Shown: piece by piece, positions 23,601-36,099 of the stretch
Numbering within the stretch: position 1 is the stretch's first letter
How the letters are laid out: every line of letters begins with the position of its first letter
From: Bacteroidetes bacterium ADurb.Bin139
GTDB lineage: Bacteria; Bacteroidota; Bacteroidia; Bacteroidales; UBA932
NCBI GenBank assembly: GCA_002070565.1
Contig: MWDM01000001.1
Span: forward strand, 1 to 64,000
Length of the DNA stretch: 64,000 bases
Direction: 5' to 3'
The notes under the pieces: model-generated
What the model saw: only the letters and a program-made list of their open reading frames with translations
What the model was told of the DNA's origin: nothing
Database searches by the model: none
Position numbers and translations under genes: made by a program

Positions 23601-23750
23601 GATCCTGCCGGGTGCCTTTTTGACTAAGGATGCAATGGGAAAATAGATGGCAGATCCGGCAAGTCCTTTTAACAATAGGTTTTCCGTTGCGTTTTCGCTG
23701 TGCTTTTTTTCAAGAAATGCCTGTATTTCCCGTACATCAAAGTCTGTCAT
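20586..23750 (-). CDS. mfd: Transcription-repair coupling factor Mfd
   Basis: 1054 residues. It removes RNA polymerase stalled at lesions and recruits UvrA. The layout is a UvrB-homology region (N-terminal third), the RNAP-interaction domain (about 380-450, IGDYVVHIDHGVGIFAGLVKI), a RecG-like translocase with Walker A CGDVGFGKTEVA and DEEQ box LLIIDEEQKFGV, helicase motif VI HQMRGRVGRSNRKAYCYLL, and the C-terminal TRCF domain. This is shorter than E. coli Mfd (about 1150), as usual in Bacteroidota. The 5' end overlaps the C45 hydrolase gene by 14 nt. Confidence 0.97.
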   Translation of the reverse strand: MTDFDVREIQAFLEKKHSENATENLLLKGLAGSAIYFPIASLVKKAPGRIHVLILENSTEASYASADLSVLLGYQCVYLFPASYRGTGKTARPDESFQVQRTMALGAVAEFYRKPSDILLVTYPKALQEGIPEKEILETGSLDIRKGQIISHQEIKEILFQARFEKTDFVSEPGQFAVRGSILDVFSYAENRPCRINFFGDQVENIRIFDQNTQLSIEERNTISIIPRLEGDQSLLEMIQGNALVWLFHEQAVNIPANIPVIAINPLTEEGQKILYQTTPQPVINKNFALLVKDIQTRKEKGYQVFILSENRAQIRRLQEIFRSLDCPDDLVQYQEFSLHEGFTDHYNKISYYTDHQLFQRIHRVYLRRAVQKSEQITINDLSGFRIGDYVVHIDHGVGIFAGLVKINNNGKVQEAVKLIYQDNDALYVSIHGLHRIARFKSKDSEPPRISRLGSGAWNRIKQQTKKKVKDIAGELIKLYSERTAAKGFAFSADTYLQNQLEASFLFEDTPDQLLATQQVKEDMEKPYPMDRLICGDVGFGKTEVAIRAAFKAVTDGKQVAFLVPTTILALQHYQTVCERLAEFPVTTQFISRLKTPAQTKEILQQLEAGTIDIIIGTHRLLNKDVLFKDLGLLIIDEEQKFGVAAKEKLKQMKVNVDTLTMTATPIPRTLQFSLMGARDLSIMQTPPSNRLPIHTEVQVFDQEIIGEAIDRELERGGQIFFVHNRIMDIENVADTLRQIRPGLRISIVHGQMPPRAMEKILLDFICGDYDLLLSTSIIENGIDIPNCNTIIINRAHRFGLSDLHQMRGRVGRSNRKAYCYLLVPKDVNLGEDAKRRLKALESFTELGSGLNIAMQDLDIRGAGNLLGGEQSGFILQMGFEAYQRILEEALAELNPACEGKPAAVNCTIETDIEVMIPDDYIGQVAEKIRLYKELDNIKDEDRLQRFFASLEDRFGPIPEQFRQLGFIVRLRQMAARTGFERVVLKNGIMLAYFISDQQSAYYKSKQFSDILNYISLNPKNFQVKEQKNKLFVKIPHVNSVEAAYNFFKIFAKP

Positions 23751-24963
23751 ACGTTTCTTCGATCATGGCCGAGATTTCTTTGTACATCTCTTCTACTTTG
23801 TTTTTTGCCAGTTTTTTTCCCGTAAGACCTTCTTTTTCAAGGGTGGCAATAAGTGTTTCGTATTTTTCAAAAAGTATTGATTTCAGGATGGCAAGCTGCT
23901 GCATAAAGCCTGTGCCCCGGCTGTTATGAATTAAAGAAAAATGCATATAACGCGGACCGTTTCCTCTTTCCACGGAAAATACCCGGTGCTTGAGCGCAAC
24001 GGCTTTTTCACACAAGGGAGAACGGTTGTTTTCCCCTTGTCCCAGGAGCAGGGCGGGCTGGCTTGCTCCCATTTGCACCCACAGGGGAATACACACTCCG
24101 GCGGGGGGATATCCCATCACCGTCCACATGATGGTTTTAAGAGGATCTTCCCCCGGCTTGACCCCTTCTATCACCACAGAACAGGTGCTCGAGCGGCGGG
24201 GAATGAAGTCCTGGTCTATAAACCATCCTTTTGCGTTTTGCGGGGAAAAAACAGGATCACAAAGATCCATTCCCAGAAATGCATGGTAAAAAGAGCGGGA
24301 AACATGGCTGAAAATCCATTGCGGGGTAAAATCCATGGAGGACGATTTTTGCAAAAAAAGATCGCTGGCCGTTATATACCGCATGTATCCCGCTCCCTGG
24401 CCTATTCTTCCGGTGTAGGAAAAATTGGTATAAACCAGGTACCCGTTTGGCGCATTGCGGGGGTCATTAGCGTCTACCTTAACCCAGGAATGGTTGTTGA
24501 CCTCGTAATAAGCAGCCCCTCCCAAAGCGTCTATAACACCAAAATTGGCTTCTACCCTCATGGGTCTGGATAGCGTATCCAGAAAACGTTCAAAATCCTC
24601 AAGATCTGCACAAATTTCCAATGCCCTGAACATGAGTTTCCCTTCGTGATCCATATCCTCCACCTGATCATCCTTTAAATTGTAGGAGGCTGTATTCATA
24701 ATGGAAAAACCTGCCTTATTGGTGCCAATCCATGCTGCTTCCCCTTTATCGGGAGCATCTACAAGGGCCAGAAAATCATATTTTCCGGTATTGAAATAAG
24801 CTATGCGGTTTTGTTCCTGGCCGGTATCCCTGTGTTTCCATAACAATGGCTTACCGTTAGCGGTCACTTTTCCCGTTATGATAGCCGAGGTGCATGCCTG
24901 TGACCGGATGGTTACGAAAACAAGAAATAGGCTAAAAACGGCAAAAAAAAGGCTTTTCTTCAT
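23737..24963 (-). CDS. C45-type Ntn-hydrolase (acyltransferase/amidase-like), exported
   Basis: 408 residues. The signal peptide (SLFFAVFSLFLVFVTIRSQA) ends directly before Cys24 in A-CTSAIITGK. In the NTN-hydrolase fold a new N-terminal Cys acts as nucleophile, so signal removal may itself expose the active residue. GKPLLWKHRD and WIGTNKAGFSIMNTASYN match the C45/choloylglycine-hydrolase-like family. Likely reaction: cleavage or transfer of a linear amide or acyl bond in the periplasm; substrate unknown (acylated amino acids, bile-salt-like amides or penicillin-like compounds are all possible). It sits between ruvB (11 nt) and mfd (14-nt overlap). Confidence 0.8.
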   Translation of the reverse strand: MKKSLFFAVFSLFLVFVTIRSQACTSAIITGKVTANGKPLLWKHRDTGQEQNRIAYFNTGKYDFLALVDAPDKGEAAWIGTNKAGFSIMNTASYNLKDDQVEDMDHEGKLMFRALEICADLEDFERFLDTLSRPMRVEANFGVIDALGGAAYYEVNNHSWVKVDANDPRNAPNGYLVYTNFSYTGRIGQGAGYMRYITASDLFLQKSSSMDFTPQWIFSHVSRSFYHAFLGMDLCDPVFSPQNAKGWFIDQDFIPRRSSTCSVVIEGVKPGEDPLKTIMWTVMGYPPAGVCIPLWVQMGASQPALLLGQGENNRSPLCEKAVALKHRVFSVERGNGPRYMHFSLIHNSRGTGFMQQLAILKSILFEKYETLIATLEKEGLTGKKLAKNKVEEMYKEISAMIEETYDRL

Positions 24964-25988: not shown

Positions 25989-26188
25989 GAAGCAATAATA
26001 TATAAATAATTTTTACTTATAAGGTTTCTATTGTTTATTATATGTTTGTTGATATGTTGAAATAAAACCTTAAATATTAATAATCAATAATTTATGCACT
26101 AATTCCAATAAAAATGATGTTCATATCCCTGTTGGTAAAAAATGTAAAAATTGCGGTTTATCCACAAAATAATATTTATGAACAAAAG
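25989..26188. other. AT-rich intergenic spacer with DnaA-box-like 9-mers
   Basis: About 200 bases, strikingly A+T-rich compared with the flanks. It contains TTATCCACA (26158-26166, a perfect match to the classical DnaA box) and two near matches in the same orientation, TTATGCACT (26092-26100) and TTATGAACA (26176-26184). No gene, tRNA or clear terminator is seen. It probably also holds the ruvB promoter. Confidence 0.35.
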
Positions 26189-26557
26189 TCATTTTTTTAT
26201 ACCCGGTTTAATCAACAGGTTTTGCACAGGAACCAGTGTGGTTATAAACAATAAGCCCGAAGTGATCAAACCTTCGGAAAGTATTGCAATCACAGGGAAG
26301 TATACCCTATAATGGAATTCGGGCGATGTAAACGCCAGGTTGCTCAGTTTGAAAAGGGCAGCTATCAGGGTAACCAATACAGGGACCATCACCTTCCTTT
26401 CGCTTTTTTTGAAGGCCATGATCAGGCAATAGGCCCCGAAGGGGTAAAGCAGGATCCCGGCAGAATTTTCTACAAAATGGAGCAAAAAACCGATTACTGC
26501 TTCTGCCAGTCCCCAACAAACCGCCCAAAATAGTATGATACGAAGGTTATTTTTCAT
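26189..26557 (-). CDS. Small four-helix membrane protein of unknown function
   Basis: 122 residues, mostly hydrophobic, with four likely TM helices (IILFWAVCWGLAEAVIGFLLHF; GILLYPFGAYCLIMAF; VMVPVLVTLIAALFKLSNLAF; PVIAILSEGLITSGLLFITTLVP) and short basic loops. I do not recognise the family. The start overlaps the end of the molybdenum hydroxylase large subunit by 11 nt, so it is probably translated from the same message. A role tied to the enzyme, such as membrane docking or substrate passage, is only a guess from position. Confidence 0.7.
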   Translation of the reverse strand: MKNNLRIILFWAVCWGLAEAVIGFLLHFVENSAGILLYPFGAYCLIMAFKKSERKVMVPVLVTLIAALFKLSNLAFTSPEFHYRVYFPVIAILSEGLITSGLLFITTLVPVQNLLIKPGIKK

Positions 26558-28829
26558 TGTATAAAGGTTTTATCAATTCTTCCCGGGTGGCTGGCAGGGA
26601 GAGCATTTTCCCTCTGGCATCGCAAAGAGCAAGCCACACTGAAAGGGCATATATAAGCGGAGGTTCACCTATGGCTCTGGAATTATGTATATTACGCGGT
26701 TCCGGGTTTCCCGGGAATAAACGTATATGAAAATGTTCGGGGAGTTCATAAATCCCGGGGATCTTGTAATTATCCAGGGAATTGGTAAGCAGTTGTCCTT
26801 TTTCATTTGTAATAAGCTTTTCCAGGGTACACCACCCCATTCCCTGTATGAATGCGCCGTGGATCTGCCCCAGGTCAATTCCCTGGTCTATGGATTCTCC
26901 GCAATCGTGAAGGATCCATACATCGGGGACCCTGAATTCACCGGTCAGCAGGTTCAATTCCACCATGGTAACAGCGCACCCCATCACATAGTACCAGTAA
27001 GGACGGCCCTCCATGGTTTCCAGTTCAAACCCTATTCCTTCTCTTTTATAGAAACCCTTTTCACTCAAAGATTCAAGGGACATATAGGCATTTAGTGCCA
27101 ATTCATTGAAAGTAACTCTTTTGCCCACTTCTTTACAGGTAATGGCGTTGTTTTTCCACTCCAGTTTGCCTTTTTCCAATCCCATCATTTCCAGCGCTAT
27201 AGGATGAAGGCGTTTTTTGAGTTTATCACAGGCATCTTTCAGCGCAGAGCCCGCAAAATCACTTCCGGTAGACGCGGCCGTGGACGTTGTATTGGGAATG
27301 ACAGCGGTGGATGTATCACTTATCCGGATATTTTCAATGGAAACGCCCAGTTCCCTTGATACCACGGTTCTTGATTTATCGTAAAGACCCTGACCCATTT
27401 CTGTGCCCGGAATGTGAATAAGCACAGACCCGTCCCGGTATATGTTGATGAGCGCCCCTGCCTGGTTCAGGAAACTTTCATTGAAAGAAATGCCAAATTT
27501 ACCGGGAACCAATGCCAGACCGCGTCTGATAGAAACGTTTTTTCGGTTGAAGGCTTTGATCTGTTTTCGCAAATCGTTGTATTGGCTCATTTCAAGCATC
27601 CGGCGATGTGCTGTACGCAGGATGTTGTTTTCCACCAGCATATTACACGGTGTTGTGTTGTTTTTCTTTATGCCATAATAGTTTTGCCACCGTACCACCG
27701 CCGGATCCTTTCCCAGGGCTCCGGCTATTTGCGTTACAATGGATTCTATGATGGAAAAGGCCTGGGGCACCCCAAAGCCCCTGAAGGCCGTGTTGCTGGG
27801 TTTATTTGTCTTGCAGGGATAGTAAACCACATTCAGGTTGGGGATGAAATAAGCCCCGTCAATGTGGAACAGGCTGTGATGAAGAACGGCATAGGAAACA
27901 TCGGTACACCATCCGCAGTCAAAAGCCACGGAAAGGTCGATGGCAAGGATCTTGCCCAGGTGATCAAAACCAACATCCCAGGTGGCTTTGAAGGGATGCC
28001 TCTTCCCCGAGATACGGAAATCCTGGTCCCTTTCCAGGATCAGAAGGATAGGTTTGTTTGTTTTCCAGGCCAGCAGCGAAGACCAGGCCACCGACCAGTT
28101 GGCCTGTGCCTGTTTTCCTCCAAAACCTCCACCAATGCAGCCTGCCTCTACTTCTATGTCCGAGGCCCTGAGCTGGAGCAATGAGGCCGCAAAACGCTGG
28201 TTGTCTGATGGGTTCTGTGTAGATGCGCGGATAAAGAATCCTCCCTGGTGCCGCGGAACGGCATAAGCCGAGTGGGGCTCAAAATAGTAATGCTCCTGAC
28301 CCCCGGCCTGTAGCGACCCTTTTTCCCTGAAAGGAACCTTCTCCATGGTTTCCGGGGTATTTCCCCTGATCAGATGCAGCGGTTCGAATAAAAAAAGCTT
28401 TTTCTCCAGGGATTCCTCAACCGAAAGTACAGGCGGCAAAACCTCCCATTTCCACTGTATGAGCAAGGCCGCCTTTTTTGCGTTCTCCAGGGTGTCGGCA
28501 GCCACCAGGCATACAACGTGTCCCAGATAACCGCAAATCCCGCCCACCGGGAGCAGGCAGGGTTCATCCTCTATGATGGGGGCCATCGTATTGGGACCCG
28601 GAATATCGCTTGCCGTAACCACCGCTGCAACACCGGGGAAAGCCAGTGCCGCACGTACGTCCAGTTCAAGCAGGCGTGCGTGGGCGTAGGGCGACGAAAC
28701 GGCATAACCCCTGAGCGTTCCTTCATAAAGCTCCAGATCGGGAATGTAGCGGGTCTGACCCGCCAGATGTGCCGCTTCTCTGTATTGTGTAAATTTATCT
28801 TCCGTCATGTTCCCCGTTATATGATTCAT
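26547..28829 (-). CDS. xdhB: Xanthine dehydrogenase, molybdopterin-binding large subunit
   Basis: 760 residues of the XDH branch of molybdenum hydroxylases. Family markers are GGQEHYYFEPHSAYAVP, GCIGGGFGGKQAQ, KTNKPSNTAFRGFGVPQ (holding the Arg equivalent to bovine R880) and the catalytic Glu in AIGEPPLIYALSVWLAL (bovine E1261 equivalent). The likely reaction is hypoxanthine to xanthine to urate, or hydroxylation of a related heterocycle. The start overlaps the FAD/Fe-S subunit gene by 35 nt; an alternative ATG at 28808 would reduce this to 14 nt. Mo-cofactor and maturation genes are not in the window. Confidence 0.92.
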   Translation of the reverse strand: MNHITGNMTEDKFTQYREAAHLAGQTRYIPDLELYEGTLRGYAVSSPYAHARLLELDVRAALAFPGVAAVVTASDIPGPNTMAPIIEDEPCLLPVGGICGYLGHVVCLVAADTLENAKKAALLIQWKWEVLPPVLSVEESLEKKLFLFEPLHLIRGNTPETMEKVPFREKGSLQAGGQEHYYFEPHSAYAVPRHQGGFFIRASTQNPSDNQRFAASLLQLRASDIEVEAGCIGGGFGGKQAQANWSVAWSSLLAWKTNKPILLILERDQDFRISGKRHPFKATWDVGFDHLGKILAIDLSVAFDCGWCTDVSYAVLHHSLFHIDGAYFIPNLNVVYYPCKTNKPSNTAFRGFGVPQAFSIIESIVTQIAGALGKDPAVVRWQNYYGIKKNNTTPCNMLVENNILRTAHRRMLEMSQYNDLRKQIKAFNRKNVSIRRGLALVPGKFGISFNESFLNQAGALINIYRDGSVLIHIPGTEMGQGLYDKSRTVVSRELGVSIENIRISDTSTAVIPNTTSTAASTGSDFAGSALKDACDKLKKRLHPIALEMMGLEKGKLEWKNNAITCKEVGKRVTFNELALNAYMSLESLSEKGFYKREGIGFELETMEGRPYWYYVMGCAVTMVELNLLTGEFRVPDVWILHDCGESIDQGIDLGQIHGAFIQGMGWCTLEKLITNEKGQLLTNSLDNYKIPGIYELPEHFHIRLFPGNPEPRNIHNSRAIGEPPLIYALSVWLALCDARGKMLSLPATREELIKPLYNEK

Positions 28830-30210
28830 AAAGAAGGATCAGCATATTTTTTGCCACATCCATCCGGTATGCGGCACTTCCCCGTACATCGGAAATGGGG
28901 GAAAAGTCTTTTTCAAGCCAGGCCGAGGCTTTCTGGCAATTGGCCCGGGAAAACACCTTCCCTTTGAGAAAACGCTCTGTGTGCAGGGCACGTGCCGGAA
29001 CGGCCGCCATGCCGCCGTAAGCCAGACGTACCGATTTGCATGTTTTTCCCTCCACCCGGACAGAGGCTGCAAAAGAAACAGAACTGATGTCCATGTTTTT
29101 GCGCCTTGACTGCTTATGGGCAAAATGATACGTTTTTTCTGCGGGGATGGGAAATTCCACGGCAAGCAATACTTCATCTGACCTCAGGTCGACCGTACGG
29201 TATCCGGTGGTGAAAAGGTCTGCCTTTATGCTACGTGTCCCACGTGGCCCGCAGACCACACAAACAGCGTCATGTGCAAGGCACAGCGGCATGGTGTCCC
29301 CGACAGGAGACCCGTCGGCTATGTTGCCTCCGATCGACGCCTGGTTCCGGACCTGTAAAGAAGCAAAGGAATCCAGGTATGTTATCATGTAAGGAAAGTG
29401 CGGTCCCATTTGCTCTTTCATGGTTTCAAAACTGCAACCCGCCCCCAGGGAAATAGCGGAGTCTGATACGTGCACCCGCAATAATTCACGTATCCGGGAA
29501 ATATCAATGACCGGGCCTTTGTAGTCCATGCAGGAGCCTGTAAAGCCCGAGGCAATGCGCGCCCCGGGATATTTATTTCTGGCCGCATATAAATCTTCCA
29601 GGGTAAGGGGGAGCAGGTATGCACTGTTTCCCTGCACAAAAACATGCATCCTGTTTTCTGTCTCTGGAAAATCCAGGGGCTCTTCCCTTCCGGCCTTAAT
29701 ACCGGAGTTGCTGTCCAGCGAAATCATGGCATCCACAATGGATTGATAACCGGTACAACGGCAGAGGTTTCCCGATAAAGAACGCCTGATCTGCTCCTGG
29801 TTCATGGGAAGGCGGTTTTTCAAATGGATATAGGAAGACAATACCATTCCCGGTGAGCAGACACCACACTGGCTTGCCCTTTCCCGTAAAAAAGCCTCCC
29901 TGATGGGAGCAGTATCCAGTAATTGTTGCGGGGCTTCTATGGTAAGCAAATGTTTTCCGTGAAGCCGGGGAAGCCGCATGAGGCAGGAATCGGCCGAAAC
30001 CCTTTTTTCAGACCCCGTAACTTCATCCGCGTGGGCGACGACCACCGTGCAGGCTCCGCAATCTCCCGCCCCGCACACCTCTTTTGTCCCCGTCAATTTT
30101 TCATACTGGCGCAGGTAATGGAGGACAGAGCAGGAAAGTGGCGGGCTTTCCGGTTGGGAAAAATCAATTTCCCGGGGTTTTCCATTCAGATAAAAGCGAA
30201 GTAAATCCAT
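28795..30210 (-). CDS. xdhA: Xanthine dehydrogenase, FAD/2Fe-2S small subunit
   Basis: 471 residues. The N-terminal plant-type 2Fe-2S domain has CGAGDCGAC (Cys46, 51, 54). The second 2Fe-2S domain has CGVCSPGM and LCRCTGYQ (about 115-155). The FAD-binding domain follows (about 190-360; QASIGGNIADGSPVGDTMP) with a C-terminal FAD-domain tail. It passes electrons from the Mo site to NAD+ or another acceptor. The fused Fe-S/FAD arrangement is that of bacterial XdhA. It begins 10 nt after the GH20 stop, which places it in the same operon as cell-wall sugar hydrolases. Confidence 0.93.
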   Translation of the reverse strand: MDLLRFYLNGKPREIDFSQPESPPLSCSVLHYLRQYEKLTGTKEVCGAGDCGACTVVVAHADEVTGSEKRVSADSCLMRLPRLHGKHLLTIEAPQQLLDTAPIREAFLRERASQCGVCSPGMVLSSYIHLKNRLPMNQEQIRRSLSGNLCRCTGYQSIVDAMISLDSNSGIKAGREEPLDFPETENRMHVFVQGNSAYLLPLTLEDLYAARNKYPGARIASGFTGSCMDYKGPVIDISRIRELLRVHVSDSAISLGAGCSFETMKEQMGPHFPYMITYLDSFASLQVRNQASIGGNIADGSPVGDTMPLCLAHDAVCVVCGPRGTRSIKADLFTTGYRTVDLRSDEVLLAVEFPIPAEKTYHFAHKQSRRKNMDISSVSFAASVRVEGKTCKSVRLAYGGMAAVPARALHTERFLKGKVFSRANCQKASAWLEKDFSPISDVRGSAAYRMDVAKNMLILLYESYNGEHDGR

Positions 30211-30220
30211 AAACGGTCTG

Positions 30221-32431
30221 TTATTTTTCTATCCAGAGATCCTGCAAATAAAAAGTCAGGGGATCATTACCCTTCTCTATAACAAGGCGGACCGATAACA
30301 CAGGTGAATCGGGGACAAAACGGCATCCGCCGTTTTCCCAGGCACAGGCAGCGCGTTTGAAGTCAACCCCGTTGGAAGAATATTCCACGTGGGCAAAATC
30401 AACCATGTCAATATCTACACCGGGCAAACCGGTGCGGACCAGTATACCGGGTGTATGAACCGGTTGTTCAAAGGCAAACTGAAGGTATTGTCCTTCCTGC
30501 AGCGGGCCAAAGCATTGCACATAAGTAGAAGGGTTGTTGTCGCCCAGGTTTGAAAGGGGTGTCCTCCTGTTAATTTCCAGGTTCCCGGTGACACGGGTAA
30601 CGGGTTTCTGGTTGCGGTCATAGGGCAGATGTGCCTGGACCACAATGCTCCGGACATGGTCCCTGAAAAAAGCCGCAAAGCGATAAGGTTCAGGATGATC
30701 TGTTTTAATGGGAGATGTATACAAAGACGAGCGGGAGCAGGGATCGGACCCGTCGCTGGTATAACGCATGACCATCCACGGATATTCATTTTCTGCCACT
30801 ATGTATCCGTTCATGTAACCAGCGCGCGGGGGCGGGACACGAAAACGGATGCCCATGAAATACAAACGGTCAAAATGTGTAAGGGAAAGACGGGTATTGA
30901 AATCTTCCCAGTCTTTTTTTGCCAGGGGACTCCACGCTACCTCGGCAAGGGCACAAAGCCGCGGATACACCTGGTATTCTGCGATGCGCTCCGGCCTGTC
31001 CATCAATTCGGACCACAACCCTCCCTGGATGCCAAGAATCAGCTCTTCCCGGGCAGGGTCAATTCCCGCCATCAGGACGGGGTCAAATGAATACACTTTC
31101 TCCACATTGGTGATAGAGGCCCATGTCATGCCGCGTTCTGCCGGGGTGTGTTTCATGTCAATGTAACAATGCGAGGCAGGCTGGGCAATGACCCGGTAAC
31201 CCCCGTTAACGGCCTGGGTGATCTTTTCAATGGACTTCCAGGCATGTACAACGGTTTTTTCCCGATCCAGGTTATCACCGTCCATGATATCATCCCACCC
31301 CACCAGTGTTTTTTCGTATTTATTGAGGATTCCCTGCATACGCTCTGCAAAGTAGGCCTGCATGCCGGCAGGATCTTCCATATGGTGCTTGTGCATGTAC
31401 GCTGTGCAGCGTGTACAGCTGGCCCACTGGCTGGTGACCACTTCGTCCCCTCCAATGTGAAAATACCGGGAAGGAAAGAGCGCGGCCATTTCACGAACAA
31501 TATCATCCAGCATCTGGTAATTTTTTTCATACGAAGCGCACCAGACATTGTTGCTGGTCCCCTGGATGCTCAGTTCCACCTCTTCTGTCAGGTCGCAGAG
31601 GATGTCGGGATAGCTTGCAATAGCGGCTTTAGAGTGCCCCGGAAGGTCAATTTCGGGGATGATCTCTATATGGCGTTCTGCAGCATAGGCCACGATCTGA
31701 CGGATTTCCTGCTGGGTATAAAAGCCGCCGTACTTTTCTCCCGCATGGCCGTAGGTTGTGGGCAGAACCTGGCCCGGACCGCGCCAGGCTCCTTTTTGGG
31801 TCAGAAAAGGATATTTTTTTATTTCAACACGCCAGCCGTTATCATCGGAAAGGTGCCAGTGAAAAACGTTCAGCTTGTGCCTGGACATCCAGTCAATGAA
31901 ACGTTTGACGTATTCAACCGTATAGAACTGACGGCTTACATCCAGCATCATGCCGCGATGCGAAAATCTGGGGTAGTCCCTGATCTGAACGCAGGGAATT
32001 TTAACCTGAAGGGCGGGCAGGTATTGATCCGGTTGGTAGACAGGTTGGTATACATTGGCAGGAAACAACTGCAGGAGTGTTTGCGTACCGTAGAAAAAAC
32101 CTGCAGCATCGCCGGCTCCGATCTCTGTAAAGTCTTTTGTTACAAGTAATGTGTAACCCTCGGGGGGCAGGGATTGGTCATAAGAAAAAACGAGGGCGTT
32201 GGACAAGGGGCGGGTTTTCACGTTTCTGATGACAATTCCCGTGGATGGTTCTATGGTTTCCCTGAACAGGGCGGCTGCTTCCCGGGCCAAAGGCAGGGCT
32301 GCTTCCTGAAAGAAGAGGGAAGTCTGCCCGTTGAAGAGGAAAAAGCCATCCTGGGGAATTGTTTCTACAGGGGCCGGGATCAAATGGAGCAAGGAGGTCA
32401 TAAACAAAGCGAGTAAAGTATTCATAGTCAC
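30221..32431 (-). CDS. Beta-N-acetylhexosaminidase, GH20, exported
   Basis: 736 residues with a signal peptide (LLALFMTSLLHLIPAPV). An N-terminal GH20b domain is followed by the catalytic barrel with the Asp-Glu pair in HIGGDE (residues 325-330), used for substrate-assisted removal of terminal GlcNAc/GalNAc. After the barrel come a chitobiase-like domain (MRYTSDGSDP) and a C-terminal discoidin/F5-8-like carbohydrate-binding module (about 610-736). The ATG overlaps the DUF4251 stop by 4 nt (ATGA); a second in-frame ATG lies 6 nt later. With NamZ upstream it could strip GlcNAc from muropeptides or host glycans. Confidence 0.93.
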   Translation of the reverse strand: MTMNTLLALFMTSLLHLIPAPVETIPQDGFFLFNGQTSLFFQEAALPLAREAAALFRETIEPSTGIVIRNVKTRPLSNALVFSYDQSLPPEGYTLLVTKDFTEIGAGDAAGFFYGTQTLLQLFPANVYQPVYQPDQYLPALQVKIPCVQIRDYPRFSHRGMMLDVSRQFYTVEYVKRFIDWMSRHKLNVFHWHLSDDNGWRVEIKKYPFLTQKGAWRGPGQVLPTTYGHAGEKYGGFYTQQEIRQIVAYAAERHIEIIPEIDLPGHSKAAIASYPDILCDLTEEVELSIQGTSNNVWCASYEKNYQMLDDIVREMAALFPSRYFHIGGDEVVTSQWASCTRCTAYMHKHHMEDPAGMQAYFAERMQGILNKYEKTLVGWDDIMDGDNLDREKTVVHAWKSIEKITQAVNGGYRVIAQPASHCYIDMKHTPAERGMTWASITNVEKVYSFDPVLMAGIDPAREELILGIQGGLWSELMDRPERIAEYQVYPRLCALAEVAWSPLAKKDWEDFNTRLSLTHFDRLYFMGIRFRVPPPRAGYMNGYIVAENEYPWMVMRYTSDGSDPCSRSSLYTSPIKTDHPEPYRFAAFFRDHVRSIVVQAHLPYDRNQKPVTRVTGNLEINRRTPLSNLGDNNPSTYVQCFGPLQEGQYLQFAFEQPVHTPGILVRTGLPGVDIDMVDFAHVEYSSNGVDFKRAACAWENGGCRFVPDSPVLSVRLVIEKGNDPLTFYLQDLWIEK

Positions 32432-32895
32432 ATTTTCAAATTTCCCAGGTAAGTAATACTTTGCCGGGTACTGCTGTTAATAGAAAGGGTTGCCATTCCG
32501 CTCAAAGTGATTTTCAGATAGAATGTAATGTTTTCGTTGGTTTCTGTTTTGGATGTAAAGACAATGGTGTACCCTTTCCGTTCGTTAAACGATGTCTGGG
32601 TTTGAACTTCCGCATTTTCCAGTTCTATGGCCAGTTTGCGGGGATCGGCCGGAGCGGTGTGGGACCGCCCGAAATACGGCAGGTAAGCAGACACGCGGGT
32701 GCTGTCAAACCTCATTTCATAATATGGGGAAAGCATCACGGACCTTCCTGTGGCGGGATTGGCCCTGTCAAAGAGGATCACAAATTGTCCGCTTTCCACA
32801 ATGGATTTGACCTGCTCTTCTTTTTTGTCCTGACCGTATGTGGTGCCAGGCAACAGCAGCAGCAGGCATAAAGAAAGAATTAAGCTGGTTTTCAT
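32428..32895 (-). CDS. DUF4251 family exported protein
   Basis: 155 residues with a signal peptide (LILSLCLLLLLPGTTYGQ) and a beta-rich body. Residues such as MLSPYYEMRFDSTRVSAYLPYFGRS and FTFYLKI-like ITFYLKITLSGMATL match the Bacteroidota DUF4251 family, whose function is unknown. The body ends in SINSSTRQSITYLG. It is sandwiched between namZ (2-nt gap) and GH20 (4-nt overlap), suggesting a periplasmic accessory protein made together with the glycosidases. Confidence 0.82.
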   Translation of the reverse strand: MKTSLILSLCLLLLLPGTTYGQDKKEEQVKSIVESGQFVILFDRANPATGRSVMLSPYYEMRFDSTRVSAYLPYFGRSHTAPADPRKLAIELENAEVQTQTSFNERKGYTIVFTSKTETNENITFYLKITLSGMATLSINSSTRQSITYLGNLKM

Positions 32896-32897
32896 GA

Positions 32898-34088
32898 TTA
32901 TTGGGGATAGATCAGGTATTGGTTGCGTTTCACCTTAAAATCCTCCAGCTGATCAGCCCAGAGGGCTGCGATTTGATCGGCAGTCTTTCCCTGGAGGATC
33001 ATGGGGCGGACATAGTCCACACCAACAAGCTTTTCAAAATACGAGGTAAAGAATTCATCACCGATTTTTGCGTTTTCATTCAGGTTGCGGTATGCATCTA
33101 TCACGTATTGAAGGTCAAATCCCCTGGCACGGATCACTTCATCGGGAGGAGAGGTGCGAAGGTCTACCCCGTAACAAAGGACGTCCTTTTGAATTGGATT
33201 TCGTGCCCCGGGTACGGATTGGGGAGTAAAGGAAAAATCGTGGCCGGCCATTTGAGGGTGTCCGTATACCTGGAAGGGAAAATCGGTTCCACGCCCCAGG
33301 CTTACAGGAGTTGCCTCGAACAGGCAGATAGAGGGGTACAGGTAGATGGAGCGGTTGTTGGGCAGGTTGGGTGAGGGTTTTACCGGTAATTCATAAATGG
33401 TCCGGTGCGTATAATTAAGGCAGGGAATAACGGTCAGGGGTGCCTGCAGGCTGTCTTGAAGCCAGAATTCCCCATTGATCATACAGGCCAGTTCCCCCAG
33501 CGTCATGGCGTGTACCACAGGTATGGGAATTACCCCCACAAAAGAACGGTATTGCATGTCAAGTACAGGACCCGAGGCCATGTGACCGTTAGGGTTGGGC
33601 CGGTCCAGCACAAGCAGGGGAACGTTGTTCACCGCGCAGGCTTCCATCAGGTAATACAGGGAAGACAGGTAGGTATAAAAACGAAGTCCCACGTCCTGAA
33701 TATCAAAAATGGCAATATCAATTTGCTGCATCAGGCTGTCTGCGGGGACCGCACCGCGGCCATAAACCGATATGACGGGAATACCGGTTTTGGGATCAAT
33801 CTGGTGGTCAATCTGTGCGCCGGCGTCTTCATTACCCCTGAAACCATGCTCCGGGGCAAAAATCATTCTTATATCCACGCCCAGGGAGAGCAGGCTGTCT
33901 ACCAGGTGTTTGTCTTCTATAAGGGCTGTGTGGTTGGTAAGCAGCCCTACCCTTTTTCCTTTGAGCAGGGAAAGGTAAGCCTCTGTGTTTTCTGCGCCGG
34001 TGCGCAGCGAAGTATTTTCCTGTGGATTCACGCAGGAAGCCAGGGTTAGGGATAGTCCCAGAATTCCGATGTAAAGCAAGTGTTTCAT
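32898..34088 (-). CDS. namZ: Exo-beta-N-acetylmuramidase NamZ-like lipoprotein (DUF1343, GH171)
   Basis: 396 residues with a lipobox (TLASC, about Cys19). NamZ enzymes release terminal MurNAc from peptidoglycan fragments, as shown in Bacillus subtilis and Tannerella forsythia. The family signature is present: [61 protein letters not shown] and [27 protein letters not shown]. It is the first gene of the namZ-DUF4251-GH20-xdhAB cluster. A TAACTTCG box lies 4 nt before the ATG. Assignment to the family is strong; substrate specificity is inferred from relatives. Confidence 0.88.
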
Positions 34089-34092
34089 GCAA

Positions 34093-34100
34093 CGAAGTTA
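34093..34100 (-). promoter_or_regulatory. Possible -7 promoter box for the namZ-xdh cluster
   Basis: TAACTTCG on the minus strand has one mismatch to TAnnTTTG and lies 4 nt before the namZ ATG. tRNA-Pro has the same TTCG variant. Confidence 0.35.
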
Positions 34101-34129
34101 TGAAAAAATTGCATCTCGGCATTGTTTTG

Positions 34130-34137
34130 TATTTTTG
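34130..34137 (+). promoter_or_regulatory. -7 promoter box for sdhAB
   Basis: TATTTTTG, a TAnnTTTG match, lies 18 nt before the sdhA ATG at 34156. It supports that start over an earlier in-frame codon at 34087. Confidence 0.55.
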
Positions 34138-34155
34138 TATGTCAAACCAATTATC

Positions 34156-36099
34156 ATGTCTGCGATCCTTGATGCAAAAATCCCGGAAGGTCCGCTGGAA
34201 CATAAATGGACACGCTGCAAAGAATCTCTGAAAGCGGTGTCTCCCGCTAACAGGGAAAAGATGCATATTATCGTGGTGGGAACGGGACTTGCAGGAGCCT
34301 CGGCAGCAGCGGCCCTGGGCGAACAGGGGTACCGCGTGAATGTGTTTTGCATGAGCGATTCTCCGCGCAGGGCACATTCGGTCTCGGCCCAGGGGGGGAT
34401 CAATGCGGCAAAGAATTACCGGAACGACAACGATTCGGTAGAACGACTCTTCATGGACACGTTGCGGGGCGGGGATTTCCGCTCCAGGGAGGCCAATGTG
34501 TACCGTCTTGCCCAGGTGAGTAACGCCATCATTGATCATTGCGTTGCCCTGGGGGTCCCCTTTGCCAGGGATTACGGCGGGTATCTGGACAACAGGTCTT
34601 TCGGCGGCTCACTTGTAAGCAGGACATTTTATGCCAGGGGACAGACAGGACAACAGCTCCTGCTGGCGGCCTATTCTTCGCTTAACAGGCAGGTGGCCCG
34701 GGGGAAGGTAACGGTCCATAGCCGGGAACAAATGATGGAGCTGGTGACAGAACATGGACGTGCCCGGGGGATCATCACCCGGGATATGGTCACAGGAAGG
34801 GTAACCGCCTACCCTGCCCATGCGGTGGTTCTTGCCTCGGGAGGATACGGAAATGTTTACTACCTTTCTACCAATGCCATGAATTCCAATGGCTCGGCCC
34901 TGGTACAATGCTGGAAAAAGGGAGCTCTCTTTGCCAATCCCGGTTTTGTCCAGATACATCCCACATGCATTCCGGTGCATGGCCAATACCAGTCCAAGCT
35001 AACACTGATGAGCGAATCGCTCCGAAACCACGGAAGAATATGGGTGCCTGCCAGAGAAGAAGACGTCAGGGCTTTGCGGGAAGGCAGGATCAGGCCATCG
35101 GCCATTGAGGAAGAGAATAGGGATTATTACCTGGAACGCAGGTATCCCGCCTACGGGAACCTGGTTCCCAGGGATGTGGCATCGCGGGCAGCCAGGGAAC
35201 GCTGTGACGCAGGCATGGGCGTGAGCAGGACCGGGCGTGCCGTCTATCTTGATTTAACCCAGGCCATAGAAAAGCACGGTAAGGCATTCATAGAAAGCCA
35301 ATACGGGAATTTGTTGCAAATGTATGAAAAGATTACGGGAGAAGACCCGTGGAAAGAACCCATGCAGATCTATCCCGCCATTCATTATACCATGGGCGGA
35401 TTGTGGGTAGATTACCATCTGATGACCACCGTGGAAGGCTTGTTTGCCATTGGAGAAGCAAATTTCAGTGATCACGGGGCAAACCGCCTGGGGGCCTCGG
35501 CGCTGATGCAAGGTCTTGCAGATGGTTTTTTTATCCTGCCTTATACACTTCCCGCCTACCTTGCCGACAAAACCGCCGAACCATGTCCCGATGCGGCATG
35601 GGATATATTCATGCAGGCAAGGGCGGCTGTGCGGGAACGCATAGAGCGGCTCATGGATTTAAAAGGCAGGGTGCCTGTTGATACGGTGCACCGCAGATTG
35701 GGCGACCTGATGTGGGAAGGGCTTGGGATTGAAAGGTCCGGGGAGGGATTGACCTCACTGATGCCCCAAATTGAATCTCTGGAGGAATATTTCTGGAATG
35801 AGGCCGGTATAACCGGCAACCACACAACAGTGAACCAGGAGCTGGAAAAAGCCATTCATCTTGAAGACTATTTTACATTAGCCCGGTTAATGCAAACAGA
35901 CGGATTGCACCGCAAGGAATCGTGCGGAGGTCATTTTCGTGTAGAAAGCCAGACAAACGAAGGAGAAACGCTGCGGGATGACAGCCGTTTCTCTTATGTG
36001 GCTGCCTGGGAATACCGGGGAGAAGGGAAAGCCCCGCTTCTGCATAAGGAACCTCTTGTATTCGATAATATTAAACTGACAGAACGAAAATATCGGTAA
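34156..36099 (+). CDS. sdhA: Succinate dehydrogenase/fumarate reductase flavoprotein subunit
   Basis: 647 residues. Interconverts succinate and fumarate; in anaerobic Bacteroidota it usually works as the fumarate reductase of the succinate pathway. The FAD-binding start is [20 protein letters not shown], the flavin-linking His is in [11 protein letters not shown], and active-site blocks are [14 protein letters not shown] and [29 protein letters not shown] completes the FAD domain. The start at MSAILDAK fits relatives and the promoter. The expected cytochrome b anchor gene (sdhC) is not upstream: the neighbour is divergent namZ. Confidence 0.95.

Follow-up and report, generated by a model that had tools for sequence, protein, structure and literature searches.

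A xanthine dehydrogenase-related enzyme with altered purine-binding residues, encoded beside cell-wall amino-sugar hydrolases in a Bacteroidales lineage

In xanthine dehydrogenase (XDH), the purine-like oxipurinol is hydrogen-bonded by Glu802 and Arg880 (bovine numbering), with Glu1261 as the catalytic residue (PMC4334109, PMC3624778). In Rhodobacter capsulatus XDH, the E232V variant showed a kcat/Km for xanthine of 0.49 instead of 56.4 and no detectable activity on hypoxanthine, and R310M had no detectable activity on xanthine. In both variants and in the double variant purine oxidation was cut or abolished, while aldehyde turnover rose (PMC2671166). The XDH-like aldehyde oxidases (AOX) also lack the XDH Glu and Arg, and the nicotinate hydroxylase HxnS of Aspergillus nidulans is an XDH relative with shifted specificity that is encoded in a gene cluster (PMC5746545). 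Here, a row of six genes was analysed in a window of 64,000 nucleotides (nt) from Bacteroidetes bacterium ADurb.Bin139 (contig MWDM01000001.1, positions 1 to 64,000). It comprises namZ, a DUF4251 gene, a gene of glycoside hydrolase family 20 (GH20), xdhA, xdhB and the small membrane protein gene tm122 (Table 1). This row is fairly likely to be one transcription unit built from two modules of different history, whose XdhAB acts on a non-purine substrate.

The row XdhAB shares with the R. capsulatus-type enzyme (PDB 1jro and 2w3r) its subunit split, its Fe-S, FAD and molybdenum cofactor (Moco) domains and the Glu1261 and Gln767 positions. Its domain set is complete, with two [2Fe-2S] domains, FAD domain and Moco subunit, and the Fe-S and FAD motifs are present. 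It differs in the replacement of Glu802 by Gln, Arg880 by His, Thr1010 by Asn and Val1011 by Glu, and in the small membrane gene that follows. Bovine positions were counted along the aligned bovine chain (offset 570) and cross-checked on Glu802, Gln767 and Glu1261; the Arg of the TAFRGFG motif corresponds to bovine Arg912, and Arg880 aligns with His318. In a 26-protein alignment, Glu802 is replaced by Gln and Glu879-Arg880 by His-His in all nine row-linked XdhB. Eight of them extend over Thr1010 and Val1011 and show Asn and Glu there; the ninth, the broken XdhB of genome G138, ends earlier. Glu802 and Arg880 are kept in 17/17 comparison proteins of the same alignment. They are also kept in 89/89 of the best Bacteroidales XDHs besides that of the window, taken from 114 matching genomes with weaker, partial and 26-29%-identical places excluded; Thr1010 is found in 87 of these and Asn in 2. 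The sets of 17 and 89 sequences may overlap.

The dN/dS values of the window xdhB (0.083-0.090, four comparisons) are similar to those of GH20 and NamZ and indicate that this gene is under purifying selection, kept and not decaying. The stem branch of the row XdhB clade is long, at 0.8 changes per column versus 0.49 in the sister clade, and both NCBIfam cut-offs for XDH equivalogs were missed (TIGR02963, 380.3 versus 467 bits; TIGR02965, 746 versus 849.5 bits). Since the purine-holding Glu802 and Arg880 are both replaced, the substrate is probably not a purine, and XdhAB most likely represents a molybdenum hydroxylase that derives from XDH and was neofunctionalised for a different substrate. 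Judged on its residues, the name 'xanthine dehydrogenase' fits the fold and not the purine-binding positions. AOX share this fold and likewise lack the Glu and Arg, although mouse AOX1 has Val/Met where the row enzyme has Gln/His and AOX are single-chain eukaryotic proteins. No published account of the row or of a Gln/His XDH was found in the largely open-access literature, as represented by titles and abstract openings.

A purine hydroxylase whose specificity has been narrowed or shifted, as in the fungal nicotinate/hypoxanthine hydroxylase HxnS, is an unlikely description of this enzyme. HxnS itself arose as an XDH copy, hxA mutants at the Arg position have altered specificity and cannot use xanthine (PMC5746545), and the window XdhB retains Phe914, Phe1009, Gln767 and Glu1261. 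However, HxnS keeps both Glu and Arg and is changed by an Ala insertion beside Thr1010, whereas the row enzyme has lost both residues; moreover Thr1010, which binds N1 or N7 of hypoxanthine (PMC5746545), is replaced here by the Asn that is so rare among ordinary XDHs.

The first-pass annotation of this DNA had offered two readings of the row. One was a scavenging unit for lysed-cell debris, with the glycosidases collecting sugars from the wall while XDH oxidises nucleic-acid purines; the other was a molybdo-hydroxylase acting on another heterocycle. The second agrees with Gln240 and His318 at the purine-holding positions, which point to a different substrate. The first appears very improbable. 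It could draw on the single strand of the six genes, on tight junctions in all seven whole rows and on the overall family match to XDH, but Glu802 and Arg880 are replaced throughout and no NCS2 purine permease was found in the source genome, and purine scavenging as the main function was rejected on these two grounds. By our reading, the Bacteroidales XDHs at loci L026 to L030 adjoin XdhC-like genes, and several adjoin amidohydrolase- or carbamoyltransferase-type genes, settings similar to purine pathways already described; the row XDH has no such setting. Furthermore, as described below, the sugar genes occur without XDH in sister genomes and at the GH20 locus of a second genus, and canonical XDH cassettes lie elsewhere. 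Pfam bore out the gene identities given earlier as far as NamZ, DUF4251, GH20 and the XDH-fold domains are concerned; it is the XDH name that the residues do not bear out.

All six genes share the minus strand, with junctions of at most 10 nt (+2, -4 with the GTG start or +2 with the ATG start of GH20, +10, -35 and -11 nt), so the arrangement reported previously agrees with the open reading frame coordinates. None of these junctions can hold a terminator, in line with the earlier statement that none lies between the genes. Across the region, 9 terminator-like stems were observed versus 10.1 expected by chance, and the sole one near the row end is listed in Table 1. Promoter scans gave 2 Bacteroidota-type sites versus 1.3 expected and 13 sigma-70 type sites versus 10.3 expected. 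Co-transcription of the row is likely because its junctions are so short.

Table 1. Positions of the row genes, of diagnostic XdhB codons and of related gene pairs (window coordinates unless a locus is named).
Feature	Positions	Strand	Evidence or remark
namZ-like exo-beta-N-acetylmuramidase (GH171-type), predicted lipoprotein	32898-34088	minus	Pfam; LASC lipobox judged by eye
DUF4251 protein, 155 aa	32428-32895	minus	PF14059, 7.6e-25; signal-peptide-like N-terminus (by eye)
GH20 beta-N-acetylhexosaminidase with C-terminal CHB_HEX_C	30221-32431	minus	PF00728, 5e-113; GTG start, alternative ATG at 32425
xdhA, two [2Fe-2S] domains and FAD domain	28795-30210	minus	Fer2, Fer2_2, FAD_binding_5, CO_deh_flav_C
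xdhB, molybdopterin subunit, altered substrate pocket	26547-28829	minus	MoCoBD_1/2, residues, dN/dS
tm122, 122-aa small membrane protein, four-helix short form of a 193-211-aa family	26189-26557	minus	
Possible terminator past the last gene, 6-bp stem and T run	26151-26167	minus	Regional total at chance level
Gln240 codon (bovine Glu802, R. capsulatus GluB232)	28110-28112	minus	
His317-His318 codons, CAT CAC (bovine Glu879-Arg880, R. capsulatus ArgB310)	27876-27881	minus	
Asn450-Glu451 codons (bovine Thr1010-Val1011)	27477-27482	minus	
Glu722 codon (catalytic bovine Glu1261, retained)	26664-26666	minus	
GH20 and tm122-relative pair, frdAB/ruvB locus of G133	L109 6021-8806		
GH20 and tm122-relative pair, frdAB/ruvB locus of G122	L110 5623-8408		

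The source genome is a 2.18-Mb assembly in 181 contigs, estimated to be 96% complete, and its named relatives are uncultured Bacteroidales metagenome-assembled genomes. The genomes compared are mostly incomplete assemblies of this kind, and absence of XdhC, MoeA or XDH from any single one may reflect incompleteness. XdhB matches were found in 13 of the 149 genomes of the family, confined to two genera. The six-gene order is kept in 7/7 genomes of the genus in which the whole row can be read (the window, L020 to L023, L040, and L046, which is from the same genome as L025), with XdhB identity to the window down to 65%, and two rows cut by contig ends (L024 and L038) are consistent with it. The linkage is thus not limited to one strain, a point that the first-pass annotation had left for related genomes to settle. 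The junction between GH20 and xdhA measures 4-10 nt in 8/8 readable loci; the others range from -1 to 4 (namZ to DUF4251), -4 to 10 (DUF4251 to GH20) and -8 to -14 nt (xdhB to tm122, excluding L038 with its broken xdhB), while the xdhA-xdhB overlap varies with the ATG chosen. The flanks are equally conserved, with divergent frdAB on one side and ruvB, a C45-type gene and mfd on the other, even where XDH is absent. Conserved gene order was therefore rejected as proof of a shared pathway, as order retention says little when the flanks are kept at the same place.

Four genomes of the same genus lack XDH at this site. In G128 and G106 the genes namZ, DUF4251 and GH20 are followed by ruvB after 298 and 229 nt, respectively; G117 has namZ and GH20 without DUF4251, 284 nt before ruvB, and G021 has namZ alone, again without DUF4251, 265 nt before ruvB. 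The sister-genome loci with sugar genes and no XDH include L105, L107 and L108. Conversely, the XDH-membrane cassette stands away from the sugar genes in G021 and G117, where the enzyme is a different, ordinary XDH, and in G064 and G111 of a second genus, g11. GH20 adjoins frdA at the frdAB/ruvB locus in 10/10 g11 loci read, and XDH is not there. NamZ occurs in 141/149 family genomes.

In a tree of RuvB, C45, FrdA and Mfd, the six-gene genome G040 is deepest, G021, G106 and G117 are nested inside, and G128 pairs with the six-gene genome G071 (100/99), which covers 26% of the species-tree columns. From these positions, the six-gene row is most simply read as ancestral in the genus, and the row-type XDH as lost at least twice, in G128 and in the ancestor of G021, G106 and G117. 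Since sister genomes keep the sugar genes alone, the sugar module does not need XDH, and by this comparison it is the older one at the locus. In the XdhB tree the G021 and G117 enzymes group with those of g11 (100/99), and a single XDH clade for the genus was rejected in a constrained tree (p-AU 0.0015); the tm122 and XdhA trees were poorly resolved.

These losses would also be expected if a horizontally mobile XDH cassette had simply come to lie behind a sugar operon and were now disappearing, and a broken second-type XDH in G106 and a frameshifted xdhB in G138 could be counted in the same sense. We consider this quite unlikely, as the row xdhB has a dN/dS of 0.08-0.09 like GH20 and NamZ, and its derived residues are invariant in 9/9 proteins.

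The decayed genes themselves are as follows. In G106, a shortened XDH (L045 14873-16877) with an xdhA without Fe-S domains and a 504-aa xdhB missing large parts sits where G021 has an intact cassette; no tm gene was found with it, and it looks like decay. In G138 (L038 3236-5300), xdhB is split into several frames while xdhA and the tm gene are readable, through assembly error or decay.

The source genome has a region (L059, G000:C3:8000-27500) with the Moco genes moaA, moaC, moeA, a MOSC-MogA-type fusion and an ABC uptake set of binding protein, permease and ATPase; an aldehyde ferredoxin oxidoreductase gene lies in the same region. MoeA was found in 23/149 family genomes, among them every one of the 14 with tm122 but not G128; in the family, tm122 is confined to Moco-making genomes (14/14). 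Searches for XdhC_CoxI (PF02625) gave no match in the source genome or in a set of 16 family genomes, 12 of which carry XDH, and it was present in 3/3 genomes with related XDHs that lack tm122 (L026, L028, L030). In R. capsulatus XdhC matures XDH, and without it XDH is devoid of Mo-molybdopterin (PMC2997495). Maturation must therefore differ here, or XdhC is too divergent to be seen.

The two modules might also be coupled in function if the breakdown of wall sugars drew on the Mo enzyme or its electrons; one example would be the oxidation of a released amino sugar, in its aldehyde form or as a derivative. In favour of this, the Gln/His enzyme was seen nowhere but at the end of the NamZ-GH20 row (7/7 whole loci and 2 partial), the R. 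capsulatus variants at the same two residues gain aldehyde oxidation (PMC2671166), two g11 genomes have the membrane gene directly after GH20 in the absence of XDH, and moeA deletion alters polysaccharide metabolism in a Flavobacterium (PMC12758843). Nevertheless, the chance of such coupling seems slim: the Gln/His enzyme has a single origin, the sugar module is kept in four genomes without this XDH (with GH20 in G128, G106 and G117, as NamZ only in G021), and the sugar enzymes seem to be exported whereas XdhAB shows no signal sequence by eye. In a more specific and very doubtful version, a new Gln/His clade made without XdhC would oxidise a NamZ/GH20 product, such as an open-chain aldehyde or derivative of a wall amino sugar, with the help of a dedicated membrane protein similar to the substrate-binding (S) component of energy-coupling factor (ECF) transporters. 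If true, the catabolism of cell-wall sugars would have a branch that depends on molybdenum.

Under the favoured explanation of two modules and a non-purine substrate, the exported NamZ, usually DUF4251, and GH20 would form the older resident and trim MurNAc and GlcNAc from wall fragments, and xdhA-xdhB-tm122 would have been added downstream of them no later than in the genus ancestor. XdhAB would keep molybdenum hydroxylase chemistry, with the catalytic Glu, the Gln near Mo, two [2Fe-2S] centres and FAD, and most likely oxidise an aldehyde or another heterocycle, its electrons passing via Fe-S and FAD to a soluble acceptor. The product of tm122 would have an accessory role at the membrane, perhaps handling a solute related to Mo or to a cofactor. 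Several points weigh against this explanation. A positively charged His might take over part of the role of Arg880, and Gln resembles Glu in shape. The Gln/His state arose once, and its match with the row counts as one event, not nine. Without XdhC the enzyme might lack sulfuration and have little activity, and gene order, with flanks retained equally, is weak evidence.

What makes the locus interesting is the enzyme clade more than the row of genes. Purine catabolism is the usual annotation for XDH-type genes, and it can mislead even at 35-45% identity, because both purine-defining residues are replaced, under purifying selection, throughout one uncultured Bacteroidales lineage. The row enzyme also offers a small testable system for substrate change in XDH, with one enzyme and defined residues.

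The protein encoded by tm122 had no significant Pfam family. It was found in 14/149 family genomes, namely 12/12 with XDH (including G138 with its broken xdhB; G106, with decayed XDH and no tm gene, was left out of this count) plus G122 and G133. The latter two have no XDH but have MoeA, and carry a 193-aa relative directly after GH20 with a one-base overlap (Table 1). Relatives beside canonical XDHs have 193-211 aa, and the invariant residues include a W-G..E...G..LH stretch. Within the flanks read, which extended 1.5 kb only for 29 of the 89 comparison loci, tm122 was not beside any of the best 89 other Bacteroidales XDHs.

In a search of the phylum, tm122 matches were found in 11/395 genomes, that of the window and 10 outside the family. 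Seven of the outside matches were taken as real (L060 to L066), and 6/7 adjoin a molybdopterin oxidoreductase, recognised by profile at L060, L063 and L064 and by eye at L062, L065 and L066. The other three were discounted as chance matches or too distant: the motif is absent from L067 and L068, and L069, which was left out of the alignment, had the weakest score. The next gene beside the distant relatives encodes a second membrane protein, followed by a TonB receptor; the one second membrane protein scanned (L064) weakly resembles the ECF T component CbiQ (2.9e-5, NCBIfam). The distant relatives gave weak hits to PF09819 ABC_cobalt and PF09605 Trep_Strep (best 4e-4 and 2e-4, below the Pfam cut-offs), which we take to be ECF S-component families. 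AlphaFold2 placed four long helices in a low-confidence model of tm122 (pLDDT 58, pTM 0.43), and the family profile A3 had no PDB match at E<=10. The tm122 family is possibly ECF-S-like, although ECF S components have six helices and T and A partners, whereas tm122 has four and the row has no T or A gene. A role in a Mo- or cofactor-related membrane function is a lead, not a result. The locus also draws attention to an uncharacterised membrane-protein family that accompanies molybdoenzymes in genomes with no XdhC match.

Near periplasmic nitrate reductase-type genes, cassettes of a tm122 relative, a second membrane protein and a TonB receptor-like gene lie at L060 8007-11545, L062 3617-7152, L064 7761-10847 and L065 7663-10770, with an NTPase_1-like gene in L060 (Pfam-scanned) and L062. 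These cassettes may encode an as yet undescribed uptake system with a link to molybdoenzymes.

In the sugar module, NamZ matched NamZ_N (1.1e-74) and NamZ_C (1.4e-28), with 4jja as the nearest solved chain (E 1.8e-143). GH20 has its catalytic domain and Asp-Glu pair, its HIGGDEV motif aligning to HIGADEV of 6ezr. DUF4251 had no relative in PDB at E<=1. In domains and exported start the module is like known pairs of GH171 exo-muramidase and GH20 hexosaminidase, and the two genes are also adjacent in L121 of another genus, g18 (L122 is cut within GH20). Unlike known NamZ/GH20 wall-sugar systems, the row has no kinase, etherase or permease gene.

Between ruvB and mfd, the window encodes a C45-type acyltransferase/hydrolase-like protein (23737-24963; weak, below-cut-off NCBIfam match), a gene present in 15/16 family genomes searched. 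On the other flank, the frdA frame at 34087-36099 is probably annotated with too early a start, as relatives align from further in; a later start would leave about 70 nt between frdA and namZ, with room for divergent promoters.

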